A stretch of DNA of 51,126 nucleotides from Terriglobia bacterium (GTDB lineage Bacteria > Acidobacteriota > Terriglobia > Acidiferrales > UBA7541): contig JAIQGD010000046.1 of assembly GCA_020072765.1 (NCBI GenBank), forward strand, positions 1 through 51,126, given 5' to 3'. The notes below the pieces were generated by a model. That model did not search any database, was not told the DNA's origin, and was given only the letters and a program-made list of their open reading frames with translations. Below, in pieces: positions 39,836 through 47,363 of this stretch; the first letter of the stretch is position 1; the number at the start of each line of letters is the position of its first letter. The position numbers and the translations under genes were made by a program.

Positions 39836-40699
39836 CTAACCCCGTTCAGCATCCTGTGCAACCGTTTCCGAAAGGGGAATAGCGGCGGTTTTCACAGCAG
39901 GCTTGGTGAAAAAACCGTAGAGCAGCCAAGCATCAATGAGCACAACGGCCGCGAGAAAGAGAAACGCCTTAGGACCTTCGACAATCTTGACGTCGCGAAG
40001 CGCCGCCGAAATGCCAAAAGCTACGACCCATGCATCGAAACTCATGCACAACCGCCGAAAGGTTTCTGCCGGCATGCGCCGAATGAGTTGAGCTCCGATT
40101 GGAACGCCGATCAGTACACTCGGCAGGATGTGCGGGATCAATTTCACGGAAGTCATCGTGAAAAGGCCTGCATTCAGGTAAGCGATGGCCGTGAAGGTCG
40201 ACTCGGCGAGGCGGATAACCCCCAGCGCCGCGCGGAACTCGCGTTTGGCTAATCCCTGATTGTTGAGCAGCACGGCCAGAGGTGGACCAGAGACCGTGGT
40301 CACCGAGTACAACACGCCAAGGCCCGCTCCGAATGGAAGCCCGATGGAACGCTCTGAGCGGATCGGACGGCGATAGCCGGCGGCCTGAGTCAGAATTACC
40401 GGCAGCAAGACGAAATATGTCCACAGTTTTAGCCAGGGCTGACTCACTCGGGAAACGATCAAGGTTCCAACAATCACGCCAGGAATCAAACCCACAACTA
40501 TAAGCGACACCCTCCGCCAGACGGACGCCACAGCGTCGCGATTGACGAACAATGCGTACGCATTGAGCACGACTTCGATCGGGACTAATGCCGGATTAAG
40601 AACGCGATTGGACAAAAAGAGCAAGGCAAGCGGAACGGTGATCGAAGAAAAGCCATAGCCGAGACCGCCGTTCACGACAGCCGCAAACAGCGTGATCAC
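39836..40699 (-). CDS. TauE/SafE-family membrane permease
   Basis: The 287-residue protein has about eight hydrophobic helices in two repeats and the TauE/SafE family look (Gly-Tyr-Gly-Phe-Ser-Ser-Ile-Thr-Val-Pro near the start, and Ser-Gly-Pro-Pro-Leu at the start of the second half). Members export sulfite or sulfonates or carry sulfur compounds. The start is GTG at 40699; a stop codon lies three codons upstream, so the start region is tightly bounded. It is nested between two pieces of another gene of the same family and is divergent in sequence from them. Being next to cysH, it may export sulfite or import sulfate. Confidence 0.85.
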   Translation of the reverse strand: MITLFAAVVNGGLGYGFSSITVPLALLFLSNRVLNPALVPIEVVLNAYALFVNRDAVASVWRRVSLIVVGLIPGVIVGTLIVSRVSQPWLKLWTYFVLLPVILTQAAGYRRPIRSERSIGLPFGAGLGVLYSVTTVSGPPLAVLLNNQGLAKREFRAALGVIRLAESTFTAIAYLNAGLFTMTSVKLIPHILPSVLIGVPIGAQLIRRMPAETFRRLCMSFDAWVVAFGISAALRDVKIVEGPKAFLFLAAVVLIDAWLLYGFFTKPAVKTAAIPLSETVAQDAERG

Positions 40700-40705
40700 A
40701 ATCAG

Positions 40706-40815
40706 CTACCGGTGAACCCACGATCAGGACGAGCGCCGGCACCGTTAAGCTGCCCCCCGCCGATGCCGGTCAGCCCCGCCGCCAGGGCGATCAAGAATCC
40801 GATGAGAACATTCAT
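40706..40815 (-). pseudogene. N-terminal remnant of a TauE/SafE permease, frameshifted
   Basis: An ATG at 40815, overlapping the cysH stop by four bases, starts a helix Leu-Ile-Gly-Phe-Leu-Ile-Ala-Leu-Ala and Thr-Gly-Ile-Gly-Gly-Gly. A run of six G (40753-40758, C on the plus strand) then shifts the frame. With one G fewer it reads Gly-Gly-Gly-Ser-Leu-Thr-Val-Pro-Ala-Leu, the family motif. It ends where the complete permease gene begins. The coupling to cysH shows that the original gene was the last gene of cysDNH. Confidence 0.75.
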
Positions 40816-41510
40816 TGCTCTGCCCGTTTCGAAAAGGTGTGAATCCCGCACTCCAGTTTGTTCCCGCCCCACCGTCCCGATCGGGGGTCCGCACCCGCGG
40901 CGGGGATGGCCGTGCAAGGCTCGCAGCCGATGCTGCGGTAGCCGGCATCATAGAGCGGCAGGGAATCGATTTTGTGGCTGGCGGTGTACTCCCAAAGCTG
41001 TCCCCATGTCCACGCGGCCAGAGGACTCACCTTCAGCAGCACTTTCCCGCTGGGCAGCACGTGGTGCTCGACCACCTTCAGATTTTTTCGCGTGGGCGAT
41101 TGTTCGCGGCGCAGCCCCGTGAACCACACCTCGAATTTTTCCAGCGCGCCGAAGAGTGGTTCCACCTTCCGCAACTGGCAGCAGCGTCCGGGATCGGTGC
41201 GGTGGAGAACGCCGAATTGCACCTCCTGCTCGGCCACGGTCTGCTTTGCCGCGAGGTTCTGCACATTCAAATTCCAGGCCTGGGCCATGCGGTCGCGGTA
41301 GGCGTACGTCTCGGCGAAGTGATATCCGGTGTCGAGGAAGAGCACGGGAATCTTCGGCTGGCGCTGCCGCAACAGGTCCAGCACGATCATGTCCTCCGCC
41401 TGGAAGCTGCACGTGATGCACGCAGCGCCCTGGCTTTCCGCGAGCACGCGGTCGACCACGCCCTCTGCGGCAAGCGATTCAAATTCTTCGGCAAGCGCCG
41501 GCTGGCTCAT
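40812..41510 (-). CDS. cysH: assimilatory APS reductase ([4Fe-4S] CysH)
   Basis: The 232-residue protein reduces adenylyl sulfate to sulfite. Two cysteine pairs that ligate a [4Fe-4S] cluster are present: Cys-Cys-Gln-Leu-Arg-Lys (about 120-125) and Cys-Glu-Pro-Cys (about 204-207). The C-terminal Glu-Cys-Gly-Ile-His gives the catalytic cysteine. PAPS-specific enzymes lack the cluster cysteines, so APS is the expected substrate. The ATG at 41510 has AAGGGA upstream and overlaps the cysN stop by four bases. The frame is open upstream without a site. Confidence 0.93.
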   Translation of the reverse strand: MSQPALAEEFESLAAEGVVDRVLAESQGAACITCSFQAEDMIVLDLLRQRQPKIPVLFLDTGYHFAETYAYRDRMAQAWNLNVQNLAAKQTVAEQEVQFGVLHRTDPGRCCQLRKVEPLFGALEKFEVWFTGLRREQSPTRKNLKVVEHHVLPSGKVLLKVSPLAAWTWGQLWEYTASHKIDSLPLYDAGYRSIGCEPCTAIPAAGADPRSGRWGGNKLECGIHTFSKRAEQ

Positions 41511-43240
41511 GGTGTTCCCTTCTGCGCGTCCGTATGCTTGTCGCGCCATTTGCGCAAGACGCCGACGATGCGGTTCACGGCTTCTTCATCGGTGTCGTCC
41601 TGGATGCGCACGGCAAAAAATGATTCCGGACCCAAGATCGCGCGCACCACCTGCTTTTGGTTGGTGCCGTCGTCGGCCGGGCAAAAAACCGTGACCAGCC
41701 CGGACAGACAGAAGGCCTTGGCGACCGTGACCAGCTCGTGCGCCAGAAAATCGTTGGGCCCGGCCAGTTGCACGTGCCAGCCTTCGTCAAACAGCCTCCG
41801 CTCGACCAGTTCGGCCACGTGCGGCCGGCCCATCACCCAAATGGCCGCCGAGGGATGCCCGAACCGCAGCAGCCGTTCCTCCTTGGCAATGCGCGGCTGG
41901 CCGGCCTGCCCGGAGGACGTCCGCGCCATGTGGCTGTGCACAATCGCGCGCTCGATGATCCCGGCGCCGACCGTGGCATTGGTGTGCGGGTCGATGACGA
42001 TGAAGCTTCCCGTCGTGCGGTTCGCGCGGTACGGATCGAAGAACAGCGGGAGCGTTGTCTTCACGTCCACCGCGGCGATGTCGTTCATCTCCAGCCGCGT
42101 CGCCAGGGCGTGCTCCAGCGTGTTGATGTCCACCCGATAGCGAATCTGGCTCACGCGGCCGCGCACGGTCCGCGTGGTGTGTTTCAGCAGATAAATTTTG
42201 TGCGGGTCCAGCGGCTCCGGATGCATCCACACCAGCGTGGCTTGAAATTCCGTGCCGGTGGATGGCGGCTGTTCCTCGCCCGCCAGCATGTCGCCACGGC
42301 TGAGGTCGATTTCGTCTTCGAGCGTGACGGTAATCGAGTTCCCCGGGCCGGCCCTCTCCAGTTCGTCTTCGAACGTGACGATCGACTGCACCTTCGTCTT
42401 GACGCCCGAAGGCAGCGCCACCACGCTCATCCCCGGACGGAGTTCGCCCGAGGCCACCCGGCCCGCAAATCCGCGGAAGCTCGCGTCGGGCCGCACCACG
42501 TACTGCACCGGAAAGCGCAGCGGGCTGGATATTGCGCCATCGCCCACCGGCACGCTCTCGAGAAACTCCAGCAGCGCCGGACCCTCGAACCATGGCATGC
42601 GCTTGCTGCGCCGCACCACGTTGTCGCCTTCCAGCGCGCTCACCGGCACGGCGTAGACCTCGCCGATGCCCAGATGATTCGCGAAGGCGCGAAATTCCGC
42701 CGTGATGCGCTCGAACACTTCCTGCGAGAAGCCCACTAGGTCCATCTTGTTGACCGCGGCCACGATGTGCTCGACCCCCAGCAGATGGGCGATGTAGGCA
42801 TGCCGGCGCGATTGCCGCAGCACTCCCTTGGTGGCATCGATCAGCACCACGGCGGCATCCGCCGTCGAAGCGCCCGTCGCCATGTTCCGGGTGTACTGCT
42901 CGTGCCCCGGCGTGTCGGCGATGATGAACTTCCGGCGGGGGCTCGAAAAATAGCGGTAGGCCACGTCAATCGTAATGCCCTGCTCGCGCTCGGCGCGCAG
43001 CCCGTCCGTCAGCAGGGAGAAATCGATGGGGCCGCTCGACCGGTTGACCTTGCTCTTGCGCACCGAGGCGAGTTGGTCCTCAAAGATTGCCTGACTGTCG
43101 TAGAGAAGCCGGCCGATCAGCGTCGACTTGCCGTCATCGACGCTTCCGGCGGTGCTGAATCGCAACAGGCCCGCCGCGGGCGTGAGCAATCCCGCGCTGT
43201 CCAACGATGCGCCGGCCGTTTTGGGTTCTGCGCTCGGCAT
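41507..43240 (-). CDS. cysN: sulfate adenylyltransferase GTPase subunit with degenerate APS-kinase tail
   Basis: The 577-residue protein has a CysN GTPase part (about 25-430): Gly-Ser-Val-Asp-Asp-Gly-Lys-Ser-Thr, Asp-Thr-Pro-Gly-His-Glu and Asn-Lys-Met-Asp. It drives sulfate adenylation with CysD. The last part (about 450-570) aligns with APS kinase (CysC) as found in CysNC/NodQ fusions, but where CysC has its P-loop it reads Gly-Arg-Pro-His-Val-Ala-Glu-Leu. The Lys and Ser/Thr needed for ATP are lost and the C-terminal kinase segment is shortened. The kinase is therefore probably dead. The start overlaps the cysD stop by one base. Confidence 0.93.
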   Translation of the reverse strand: MPSAEPKTAGASLDSAGLLTPAAGLLRFSTAGSVDDGKSTLIGRLLYDSQAIFEDQLASVRKSKVNRSSGPIDFSLLTDGLRAEREQGITIDVAYRYFSSPRRKFIIADTPGHEQYTRNMATGASTADAAVVLIDATKGVLRQSRRHAYIAHLLGVEHIVAAVNKMDLVGFSQEVFERITAEFRAFANHLGIGEVYAVPVSALEGDNVVRRSKRMPWFEGPALLEFLESVPVGDGAISSPLRFPVQYVVRPDASFRGFAGRVASGELRPGMSVVALPSGVKTKVQSIVTFEDELERAGPGNSITVTLEDEIDLSRGDMLAGEEQPPSTGTEFQATLVWMHPEPLDPHKIYLLKHTTRTVRGRVSQIRYRVDINTLEHALATRLEMNDIAAVDVKTTLPLFFDPYRANRTTGSFIVIDPHTNATVGAGIIERAIVHSHMARTSSGQAGQPRIAKEERLLRFGHPSAAIWVMGRPHVAELVERRLFDEGWHVQLAGPNDFLAHELVTVAKAFCLSGLVTVFCPADDGTNQKQVVRAILGPESFFAVRIQDDTDEEAVNRIVGVLRKWRDKHTDAQKGTP

Positions 43241-44184
43241 TAGAAGTACCCCTCGCGTTTTTTCATTTCCATCGAGCCTTCTTCGTCATGATCGATGGCA
43301 CGATTCTCCCGCTCCGAGCGCCGGAACGACACCATCTCCTCGATAATCTTCGGTACCGTGTCCGCTTCCGAACGGATCGCGCCCGTGCACGGAACGCAGC
43401 CCAGCGACCTCATCCGGCACTTCACGCTCTGCGCCTTCTCCCCGGGAAGAAGCTGCACGCCCGTTTGCAGCAGCAGCAGTGAATTGCCCCGGACCACGGC
43501 TTCGCGCTCTTTCGCGAAATAGAGTGGCACAATCGGAATCTTCTCCGCGTGGATGTACAGCCACACATCCATCTCCGTCCAGTTCGAGAGCGGAAACACG
43601 CGGATGCTTTCCCCCTTGTGGTGCCGCCCGTTGTACAGGCCCCAGAGCTCCGGACGCTGGTTCTTCGGATCCCATTGCCCGAGTGAATCGCGGAAGGAAT
43701 AGACGCGCTCCTTGGCGCGGGATTTTTCCTCGTCGCGGCGCGCGCCCCCAAACGCCGCGTCAAACCCGCCATGCGCCAGCGCGTCCAGCAGCGCCCGCGT
43801 CTTCAGCAGCCCGCAGCATTTCTGCGTGCCCAGCGCATAGGGGTTCGCGCCCTCGTCGAGGGCCTTCTGGTTCTTATGCACGATCAGTTCGGCGCCCACG
43901 TGCTGCGCGTACCAATCGCGAAACTCGATCATTTCCGGAAACTTGTAGCTGGTATCCACATGCAGCAGGGGGAATGGAATCTTCCCGGGGAAAAACGCCT
44001 TCTGCGCCAGGCGCAGCATGACGGAGGAATCCTTGCCGATCGAGTAGAGCATCACCGGGTGGGCAAATTCCGCGGCCGCCTCGCGCAGAATGAACAGGCT
44101 CTCGGCTTCCAGCATCTTCAGGTGATCGAATCGGTCGCTTATTTCCATCGCATGGCCATCCATCTTCAGGTCGCTCACGACCAT
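43240..44184 (-). CDS. cysD: sulfate adenylyltransferase subunit 2
   Basis: The protein of about 314 residues is the ATP sulfurylase catalytic subunit. The PP-loop motif Ser-Ile-Gly-Lys-Asp-Ser-Ser-Val lies near residue 49, and Arg-Arg-Asp-Glu-Glu and the C-terminal [11 protein letters not shown] block fit. It is first in cysD-cysN-cysH. The ATG at 44184 follows the terminator T run directly, and its GGAGG (44200-44196) sits in the 3' arm of the terminator hairpin, 11 bases away. An ATG at 44148 would match the usual family N-terminus and is an alternative. Confidence 0.93.
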
Positions 44185-44223
44185 AAAAAAACCCGCCTCC
44201 CGGATTCACTCCGAGGGCGGGTT
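44185..44223 (-). terminator. attenuator terminator before cysD
   Basis: The arms AACCCGCC (44223-44216) and GGCGGGTT (44197-44190) pair perfectly. An inner extension closes a small loop around AGTGAAT, and seven T (44191-44185) follow. Its T run touches the cysD start codon. Confidence 0.9.
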
Positions 44224-44265
44224 GAACTCAAGTCCAGTTTAATTGCGAACTTAGCTTAAGAACCC
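44219..44265 (-). promoter_or_regulatory. antiterminator hairpin in the cysD leader
   Basis: GGGUU-CUUAAG (44265-44255) pairs with CUUGAG (44232-44227) and AACCC (44223-44219), with UUC bulged. An inner AGUU/AACU hairpin lies between. AACCC is also the 5' end of the terminator, so only one structure can form. The 5' strand is the last four codons of the leader peptide. Confidence 0.75.
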
Positions 44266-44334
44266 AGGCGCCCCGGAGGCACACATGTGTGTCTTCCTAC
44301 AACAAAGACAACATGCGTTAGGGAGCCAGAGCAT
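44251..44334 (-). CDS. cysteine-rich leader peptide of cysDNH
   Basis: The frame encodes 27 residues: Met-Leu-Trp-Leu-Pro-Asn-Ala, then Cys8-Cys9-Leu10-Cys11-Cys12, and Cys18, ending at TAA 44253-44251. All five cysteine codons are TGT. The ATG lies about five to seven bases after the predicted transcription start, so it is near-leaderless and has no ribosome-binding site. Codons 24-27 form the antiterminator 5' strand. A ribosome that reaches the stop would cover it and let the terminator form; a ribosome stalled for Cys-tRNA would leave it free. This is read as a sensing peptide, not a functional protein. Confidence 0.8.
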   Translation of the reverse strand: MLWLPNACCLCCRKTHMCASGAPGFLS

Positions 44335-44345
44335 AGCGAATACCA

Positions 44346-44374
44346 AACTTACCCTCATTGCCACGCCCTGTCAA
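44346..44374 (-). promoter_or_regulatory. predicted promoter of the cysDNH leader
   Basis: TTGACA (44374-44369), 17-base spacer, TAAGTT (44351-44346). The -35 is a perfect match. Transcription should begin near 44339-44341, just before the leader peptide ATG. Confidence 0.7.
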
Positions 44375-44471: not shown

Positions 44472-45527
44472 TCAGATCGCGCGCGCCGTGCCCACTTGGG
44501 GCCCGCCCACCGTACGTCCCACGGCCGGGGCGATGGCCCGAATCTCCTTCATGAGCTGTTCGAATTGGTCGGGATAGAGCGACTGTGCGCCGTCGGAGAG
44601 CGCCCGCTCCGGGTCAGGATGCACCTCGATGATCAACCCGTCGGCCCCGGCCGCCACCGCCGCGCGCGCCATCGGCGCAACTTTGTCGCGCCGCCCCGTA
44701 CCGTGCGAGGGGTCGGCCACCACCGGCAGGTGCGACAGACTCTTGATCACGGGGATAGCCGCGATGTCCAGCGTGTTGCGCAGATAGGTATCGAACGTGC
44801 GGATGCCGCGCTCGCACAGGATTACCTTGTAGTTGCCGCCGGCCATGATGTATTCGGCGCACAGCAGCAGTTCTTCGATCGTGGCGGACATCCCGCGCTT
44901 CAGGAGCACGGGCTTGTCGATCTCCCCGAGTCCCCGGAGCAGGTGGTAGTTCTGCATGTTGCGCGCGCCCACCTGCAACACATCCACGTAGGGCAGCATG
45001 ATTTCGATCTGCGACGGATCCATCACCTCAGTGACCACGAGCAGGCCGTTCTTGTCGGCCGCGTCTCGCATCAGCTTCAGCCCCGTCTCGCCCATCCCTT
45101 GAAAGCTGTAGGGCGAGGTGCGCGGCTTGAACGCGCCGCCGCGCAGCAGCTTTGCTCCGGCCTTGGCCACGCGCGCGGCGATATCCGCGATCTGTTCGGC
45201 CGATTCCACGGCGCACGGCCCGGCCGCCACGACGATCTCCGTTCCTCCGATCGTGACTCCCTTGCCCAGGTCCAGCACGGTGCCTTCGGGCCGGCAGCTT
45301 CGCGCCGCCAGCTTGAAGGGATGCGAAATGGGCACGATTTCCTCGACGCCCGGCGCCGAGCGCAGCGCCTCGAGTTCGCTCCGATGCCGCTCACTTTTCC
45401 CCACGACTCCGATCACGGTTCTCTCCTCCCCGCGGATCACGTGCGCCTGATAGCCGCATTCCTTGATGCGCTCCACGACGTGATTGATTTGTTCTTCGGT
45501 TGCGGTGCTCAGCATATTGATGATCAT
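44472..45527 (-). CDS. aroF: DAHP synthase, type I-beta
   Basis: The 351-residue enzyme makes DAHP from PEP and erythrose 4-phosphate, the first step of aromatic synthesis. A ferredoxin-like N-terminal regulatory domain (about 1-70) precedes the barrel. Family motifs Ala-Gly-Pro-Cys-Ala-Val-Glu, Gly-Gly-Ala-Phe-Lys-Pro-Arg-Thr, Gln-Val-Gly-Ala-Arg-Asn-Met-Gln and Asp-Pro-Ser-His-Gly-Thr-Gly-Arg are intact. It is third in the chorismate mutase operon, 20 bases after the pheA remnant, and so falls under the aromatic attenuator. Confidence 0.95.
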   Translation of the reverse strand: MIINMLSTATEEQINHVVERIKECGYQAHVIRGEERTVIGVVGKSERHRSELEALRSAPGVEEIVPISHPFKLAARSCRPEGTVLDLGKGVTIGGTEIVVAAGPCAVESAEQIADIAARVAKAGAKLLRGGAFKPRTSPYSFQGMGETGLKLMRDAADKNGLLVVTEVMDPSQIEIMLPYVDVLQVGARNMQNYHLLRGLGEIDKPVLLKRGMSATIEELLLCAEYIMAGGNYKVILCERGIRTFDTYLRNTLDIAAIPVIKSLSHLPVVADPSHGTGRRDKVAPMARAAVAAGADGLIIEVHPDPERALSDGAQSLYPDQFEQLMKEIRAIAPAVGRTVGGPQVGTARAI

Positions 45528-46732: not shown

Positions 46733-46766
46733 AAAAAAGCCGCGTCCTCGTCTGGAGGTTCGCGGC
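46733..46766 (-). terminator. attenuator terminator before chorismate mutase
   Basis: GCCGCG (46766-46761) pairs with CGCGGC (46744-46739), with an inner CCTC/GAGG stem around CAGAC, followed by six T (46738-46733). It lies between the leader peptide stop and the chorismate mutase gene. Confidence 0.88.
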
Positions 46767-46852: not shown

Positions 46853-46887
46853 TACGTAAAGGCGAAACTCAGTGCGTACGTCGTCAT
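46792..46887 (-). CDS. aromatic leader peptide of the chorismate mutase operon
   Basis: The frame encodes 31 residues. Seven of the first 17 are aromatic: Tyr4, Phe8, Phe10, Tyr12, Phe14, Tyr16 and Trp17. It ends at TAG 46794-46792, 25 bases before region 3. Codons 12-15 lie over hairpin region 1 and codons 19-22 over region 2. A ribosome waiting for aromatic tRNAs would cover region 1 and free region 2 to form the antiterminator. No strong ribosome-binding site is visible. It is read as a sensing peptide. Confidence 0.8.
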   Translation of the reverse strand: MTTYALSFAFTYRFLYWGKRAGETRAEAISN

Positions 46888-47231: not shown

Positions 47232-47306
47232 ATGAGACGTTACTCTATGATGCGACCGATTCGCCACCGGGTATACGTAACCATCGGGTGGGGACCGCCC
47301 TCCTGA
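47232..47306 (+). CDS. possible Val/Ile leader peptide of ilvDC
   Basis: A 24-residue frame (ATG 47232, TGA 47304-47306) has Ile10, Val14, Val16 and Ile18, close together near its end, with both Val as GTA, an uncommon codon in GC-rich DNA. The last codons contain the antiterminator strand. Branched-chain enrichment is modest and there is no clear ribosome-binding site, so this is weaker than the other two leader peptides. Confidence 0.45.
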   Translation: MRRYSMMRPIRHRVYVTIGWGPPS

Positions 47307-47334
47307 GCGACACTCAGGAGATTGCGCCCCGCCC
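47286..47334 (+). promoter_or_regulatory. antiterminator pairing and hairpin in the ilvD leader
   Basis: GGGUGGGG (47286-47293) can pair over eight bases, with one G-U, with CCCCGCCC (47327-47334), the 5' arm of the terminator. Between them a perfect hairpin CTCCTGAG-CGACA-CTCAGGAG (47300-47320) covers the leader peptide stop. An earlier CCACC (47264-47268) can hold GGTGG (47287-47291). Confidence 0.65.
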
Positions 47335-47363
47335 TGGCAACAGGCAGCGGGGCTTTTTGTTTT
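47326..47363 (+). terminator. attenuator terminator before ilvD
   Basis: GCCCCGC (47326-47332) pairs with GCGGGGC (47347-47353), an inner CCTG/CAGG stem closes a GCAA tetraloop, and TTTTTGTTTT follows. It lies 38 bases before the ilvD start. Confidence 0.9.

Follow-up and report, generated by a model that had tools for sequence, protein, structure and literature searches.

In the classical attenuators of enterobacteria (trp, his, leu, ilv and phe), the leader peptide abounds in the amino acid that the operon makes, antiterminator and terminator exclude each other, and the translation of these leader peptides is led by a Shine-Dalgarno sequence. To our knowledge, cysteine is not among the amino acids of the enterobacterial attenuators, the cys genes being controlled there by CysB. 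Leaderless poly-Cys ORFs of mycobacteria, instead, have reportedly been tested by Canestrari et al. in 2020. Short ORFs of this kind were predicted before mycobacterial cys operons (PMC1262725, PMC4633059); the cysteine leader peptides predicted in actinobacteria were devoid of conserved terminator hairpins (PMC1262725), and the mycobacterial ones have been cited as translation attenuation (PMC13236596). In Rhodobacterales, uORFC-8-2, located before cysS, combines tandem Cys codons with an intrinsic terminator and is predicted to act by ribosome-mediated attenuation (PMC8632094). Hardly any attenuator of Acidobacteriota had been given a function (PMC2965389).

The leader described here, located before the cysDNH operon of a soil acidobacterium, is similar to the mycobacterial ones in its short poly-Cys ORF, in the leaderless start, predicted here from the promoter spacing, in the position before sulfur-assimilation genes and in the presence of several loci per genome. 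It differs from them in the intrinsic terminator, conserved in the family, in the covarying antiterminator, in the phylum and in the gene set; therefore, it shares with the mycobacterial leaders the leaderless layout, but not the lack of a terminator and the translational control. With the classical attenuators it has in common the product-rich leader and the mutually exclusive antiterminator and terminator. uORFC-8-2 serves the single gene cysS and has two Cys codons, mostly UGC, inside the first stem, whereas here 3–6 mostly UGU codons are found in a leaderless ORF before sulfur-assimilation genes of Acidobacteriota; as our leader precedes cysDNH, we did not assign it to uORFC-8-2, the two models being compared by their descriptions. 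In a partial search of the literature we found no report of a cysteine attenuator in Acidobacteriota or of a terminator-based cysteine regulon; since related leaders are known, we placed the element as a variant of ribosome-mediated transcription attenuation, in which the new aspects would be the regulon, the phylum and the joining of a leaderless start with poly-Cys and an intrinsic terminator.

The window, namely the whole stretch of 51,126 nt that was analysed, comes from a genome of 3.78 Mb in 152 contigs, whose closest cysD among named relatives belongs to MAGs of Acidobacteriota, including Candidatus Acidiferrales and Terriglobia. The gene order on the minus strand is aroF, leader, cysD, cysN, cysH and a TauE-type gene; aroF, encoded on the strand of cysD, has its end at 44472, and promoter, leader and terminator lie between these two genes. 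The features are as follows:

44346–44374, minus strand: candidate promoter read from the sequence (−35 TTGACA at 44374–44369, 17-nt spacer, −10 TAAGTT at 44351–44346)
44251–44334, minus strand: leader ORF of 27 codons, MLWLPNACCLCCRKTHMCASGAPGFLS followed by a stop codon, conserved in genus and family
44299–44313, minus strand: putative sensor codons Cys-Cys-Leu-Cys-Cys, with all Cys as TGT (Cys at 44313–44308 and 44304–44299)
44281–44283, minus strand: fifth Cys codon (TGT), conserved in the genus only and not in the family
44252–44278, minus strand: predicted antiterminator 5′ strand, CTCCGGGG/GC (outer stem) and GGGTTCTTAAGCTA (inner stem), directly following the Cys codons and still within the leader ORF
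44209–44239, minus strand: predicted antiterminator 3′ strand, of which 44223–44209 is shared with the 5′ arm and loop of the terminator
44185–44223, minus strand: predicted intrinsic terminator (hairpin 44223–44190 and a run of seven T, 44191–44185), with hairpin and T-run conserved in the family
43240–44184, minus strand: cysD, sulfate adenylyltransferase subunit, PAPS_reduct domain
41507–43240, minus strand: cysN, sulfate adenylyltransferase GTPase subunit
40812–41549, minus strand: cysH, APS/PAPS reductase

The TauE-type gene located 3′ of cysH (40590–40930, minus strand) is split across three frames (MNVLIGFLIALAAGLTGIGGG, GGSLTVPALVLIVG and ITLFAAVVNGGLGYG), as a result of either frameshifts or assembly errors.

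The perfect −35 promoter element and the 27-codon frame with CCLCC and a fifth Cys, on which the original prediction was based, were found as described; the fifth Cys is present in the window, but its conservation is restricted to the genus. The −10 is weak, with 3 of 6 positions matching TATAAT, which explains why a simple consensus promoter scanner called no promoter at the window leader; relatives retain TTGACA-17-TANNNT at the matching place, with TAGACT or TATACT as the −10. By inspection of the sequence, no Shine-Dalgarno was observed upstream of the ORF start in the window leader, whose start codon is 11 nt past the −10, so that the 5′ UTR would be just a few nt long; the spacing is in line with the claim that the start codon is near the transcript start. 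On a wider scale, a TANNNT near an in-frame start codon was present in 94 of 102 leaders, with a gap of 6–9 nt in 61 of them, while letter shuffles yielded such a site in 8% of cases; the start codon of each leader was the best of several candidates, which somewhat favours this result. With a gap of 6–9 nt, transcription would begin at the start codon or right next to it, and most leaders of the class are thus predicted to be leaderless. The cysteine codons of the leaders are TGT and TGC in a ratio of 294:57, vs. 2:25 in five genes of the window, and, as in ribosome-mediated transcription attenuators, the codons of the operon end product are clustered in the leader ORF. TGTTGTNNNTGTTGT had a single match in the 3.78 Mb of its own genome, where whole-genome scans were pattern searches only; the CCxCC pattern TGYTGYNNNTGYTGY, if taken alone as a marker, was uninformative, with 46 matches.

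In 36 of the 41 cysD loci of the family, a stretch of 6 codons with 3 or more Cys is located 113–129 nt before the T-run of a strong terminator. The other five are L002, cut by the contig end, L113 and L133, with two Cys in the scored window, L117, with Cys codons but a weaker terminator, and L111, with no leader; many genomes of the genus show no cysD, partly because of incomplete assemblies. The Cys codons are retained in the family together with the hairpins, so that the loss of the codons from relatives keeping the hairpins, which would have spoken against the attenuator, was not what we observed. A separate group is represented by the cysD leaders of Acidobacteriaceae (L018, L044, L045, L047, L048, L049, L050, L053 and L055), which encode a highly conserved Cys peptide, CCC[LRS]LSNIFDGC and similar, and have a GGGTGT...ACACCC-type hairpin without a U-run terminator. 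These are probably a second type of cysteine leader, perhaps translational or Rho-dependent.

The predicted intrinsic terminator, which separates the leader ORF from cysD, was found in the sequence as described, with a hairpin of −27.6 kcal/mol (with flanks) and a T-run directly abutting the cysD ATG at 44184, and the whole leader folds better than 200 of 200 shuffles (z −4.5). As for the antiterminator, the pairs originally proposed, GGGTT:AACCC and CTTAAG:CTTGAG, stand as its inner stem, while a conserved outer stem had been missed, in which 44278–44271 pair with 44216–44209 and 44269–44268 with 44218–44217. GGGTT:AACCC as the entire antiterminator was rejected, as it is the inner part only and is not conserved (L003 and L008 have no GGGTT).

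The covariation check suggested for the aligned leaders of relatives gave a positive answer, in that the outer stem tracks the 5′ arm and loop of the terminator, namely CTCCGGGGC for the window leader, CCGGAGGCGG for L009, either CTTCTGGC or CCTCTGGC for genus g5 and TGTCTTCC for genus g4. In the family, cognate arms reached −20.7 kcal/mol vs. −17.6 for swapped arms, and none of 5000 permutations was as good; the same test gave 4/5000 for genus g5 and 0/5000 when applied to 18 sulfite-reductase leaders. For the genus of the window, taken alone, the result was not significant (891/5000), because the arms are nearly identical. Moreover, in the 21 leaders of TGGC type, the true register gives pairing in 87.5% of cells, vs. 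at most 43% when the strands are slid, and one column has UA in 8 and CG in 7 leaders. This column pairs a base of the terminator loop, where the compensatory T-A/C-G changes fall and which the terminator helix does not constrain; by formal count, just two pairs have changed in both strands. When RNAalifold was applied to the alignment of the genus, it gave the terminator and a hairpin of the Cys codons, with little covariation, and no conserved protector (1:2) hairpin. What these comparisons show is the presence of the Cys codons, of both alternative helices, of the terminator and of the leaderless-type promoter spacing.

Folding of the window leader in different ribosome positions completed the picture. 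With a ribosome stalled at the Cys codons, the antiterminator (−30.4 kcal/mol, pair probability of about 1) forms before the 3′ arm of the terminator exists; a ribosome placed on the stop codon leaves the terminator as the only structure able to form. A 5′ strand that is masked and a mutually exclusive antiterminator are thus supported by computation, namely folding and covariation. In the full-length leader the terminator is thermodynamically favoured in every modelled state, so antitermination must be kinetic. When no ribosome was modelled the antiterminator likewise formed first, and therefore no protector hairpin is established.

The leader before cysDNH is very probably a classical, ribosome-mediated transcription attenuator sensing the supply of Cys-tRNA, a reading that the comparison with relatives supports. 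The transcript would begin at, or a few nt 5′ of, the leader start codon, and the ribosome, to judge from the sequence, would load without a Shine-Dalgarno site. When Cys-tRNA is ample, the ribosome would pass CCLCC and reach the stop codon, masking the antiterminator 5′ strand (44278–44252), since this strand is inside the ORF; the terminator (44223–44185) would then form and transcription would stop before cysD. When Cys-tRNA is scarce, the ribosome would stall at the TGT codons and the freed 44278–44252 would pair with 44239–44209 once this is transcribed, so that the terminator would come too late and cysDNH would be transcribed. We infer stalling, read-through and the response to cysteine from this arrangement, in which the short Cys-rich frame would almost certainly let the ribosome sense cysteine shortage, keeping transcription on.

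A different role of the same hairpin is suggested by the cysD start, which abuts the T-run and has as its only apparent ribosome-binding site the GGAGG carried by the 3′ arm of the terminator, an arrangement shared by L006, L009, L010 and L011. The hairpin could hide this site until a stalled ribosome frees it, as in mycobacteria, with termination playing a minor part. We consider such translational attenuation improbable as the main mechanism, because in most relatives the downstream gene begins tens of nt past the T-run and hairpin and T-run are still kept, and because a T-run serves termination and not the masking of a site; at the cysD locus the two effects may add up.

Four to five clustered cysteines could also make the short frame a functional metal- or redox-binding peptide, regulating by itself, and metal binding by CCLCC-like peptides is, in general, possible. 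This is even less probable, as the number and spacing of the cysteines vary widely (CCxCC, CCCCC, CCC, CSCCCCC), conservation of the remaining residues does not extend from one clade to another, TGT is preferred although it is a rare codon, the antiterminator covaries and no NCBIfam or Pfam family was matched by the leader peptide. An ordinary aroF terminator followed by a chance Cys-rich frame would fit the position of the terminator between aroF and cysD, on the same strand, but the promoter present 3′ of aroF, the uniqueness of TGTTGTNNNTGTTGT in the genome and the finding of the frame-plus-terminator unit before unrelated sulfur genes with other neighbours speak against it, and the conservation of the layout in the whole family already refutes it, leaving it a negligible probability. 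Just as improbable is a riboswitch or T-box that responds to uncharged tRNA or to a metabolite, the frame being incidental: a terminator with an alternative fold before a biosynthetic operon would be expected of it, but in the window leader and seven related loci no T-box, SAM or other Rfam family reached the gathering score (matches at E up to 5 were at chance level only), there is no space for an aptamer outside the ORF, and the Cys codons are conserved in frame.

The attenuator reading extends beyond cysD. An open pattern (TGYTGY, 80–110 nt, GYGGGTTTTTT) had exactly two matches in the genome of the window, the leader described above and a second one, MEFHTQFAACTPCCCSATAGAGVRSE with its stop codon, located before sulfite reductase on contig C77 and preceded by TTGACC-18-TAGAAT-7-ATG; the antiterminator of the latter is weak (−14.1 kcal/mol, z −0.5). 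With a covariance model built on the genus, additional leaders were detected in the family, located before genes for sulfite/nitrite reductase, rhodanese, an NMT1-type ABC binding protein, TonB-type receptors, a YeiH-like protein and a porin. The open pattern gave many matches in several families over 250 genomes of Terriglobia, and in the window's family 64 placements vs. 10 in the reversed control, overlapping placements being counted. The original prediction was not aware of a comparable case among bacteria of this type, and this proved to be an understatement, as the layout is class-wide and precedes many sulfur genes.

Across the class, 40 leaders were picked by eye on their appearance, blind to the next gene, and all 40 precede sulfur or thiol genes, or receptors and transporters: sulfite reductase (18), rhodanese (9), peroxiredoxin-like (5), TauE-like (3), siroheme-synthase-like (2), TonB-type receptor (2) and ABC binding protein (1); most of these names were assigned by reading the sequence, and only representatives were checked against Pfam. 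In a phylum sample of 119 genomes, of which 108 outside the class, the TGTTGT version of the pattern had 3 matches outside the class and 3 in the reversed control, namely background. Ten genomes of family f11 in this sample are without the stricter TGTTGT pattern, and the layout is therefore not universal in the class.

In family f11, poly-Cys leaders with a terminator were observed before a 1-Cys-peroxiredoxin-like gene (L277–L281), with no clear TANNNT −10 near their starts; these leaders would connect cysteine supply to oxidative-stress defence. Poly-Cys leaders were also observed before outer-membrane proteins similar to TonB-dependent receptors (L205, L208, L219 and L302), which suggests that these proteins import sulfur compounds.

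Leaders rich in other amino acids served as controls. Three ilvB leaders of relatives (L198, L211 and L213) have IVVV...LV codons and a similar style of terminator, and in the window a Phe/Tyr leader (MTTYALSFAFTYRFLYW..., 46887–46792, minus strand, with the terminator T-run at 46738) precedes a chorismate mutase-pheA-aroF operon. In both cases the codons match the operon products, as attenuation predicts, and the element at 46887–46738 (minus strand), with its Phe/Tyr-rich leader peptide MTTYALSFAFTYRFLYWGKRAG..., looks like a Phe/Tyr attenuator. Upstream of ilvD, a short frame, MRRYSMMRPIRHRVYVTIGWGPPS with its stop codon, and a terminator at 47354 were observed (47232–47354, plus strand); this is a possible branched-chain attenuator, and the weaker case.

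We lean slightly towards the view that the sulfur metabolism of Terriglobia is run largely by a distributed regulon of leaderless poly-Cys attenuators, in which charged tRNA-Cys, as the common signal, would take the role of a regulator such as CysB or CymR, and which would span sulfate activation, sulfite reduction, siroheme, sulfurtransferases, transporters and peroxiredoxin. The origin of these attenuators is apparently independent of that of the mycobacterial poly-Cys ORFs, and the system can be tested in those culturable Acidobacteriaceae that have related leaders. The analysis offers a functional reading for attenuators of Acidobacteriota, mostly without an assigned function until now. 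With the leader before cysDNH, sulfur assimilation would be under the control of a cysteine attenuator based on a terminator, of a type that unites leaderless initiation with classical attenuation and that a whole class of abundant soil bacteria would use as a regulon.
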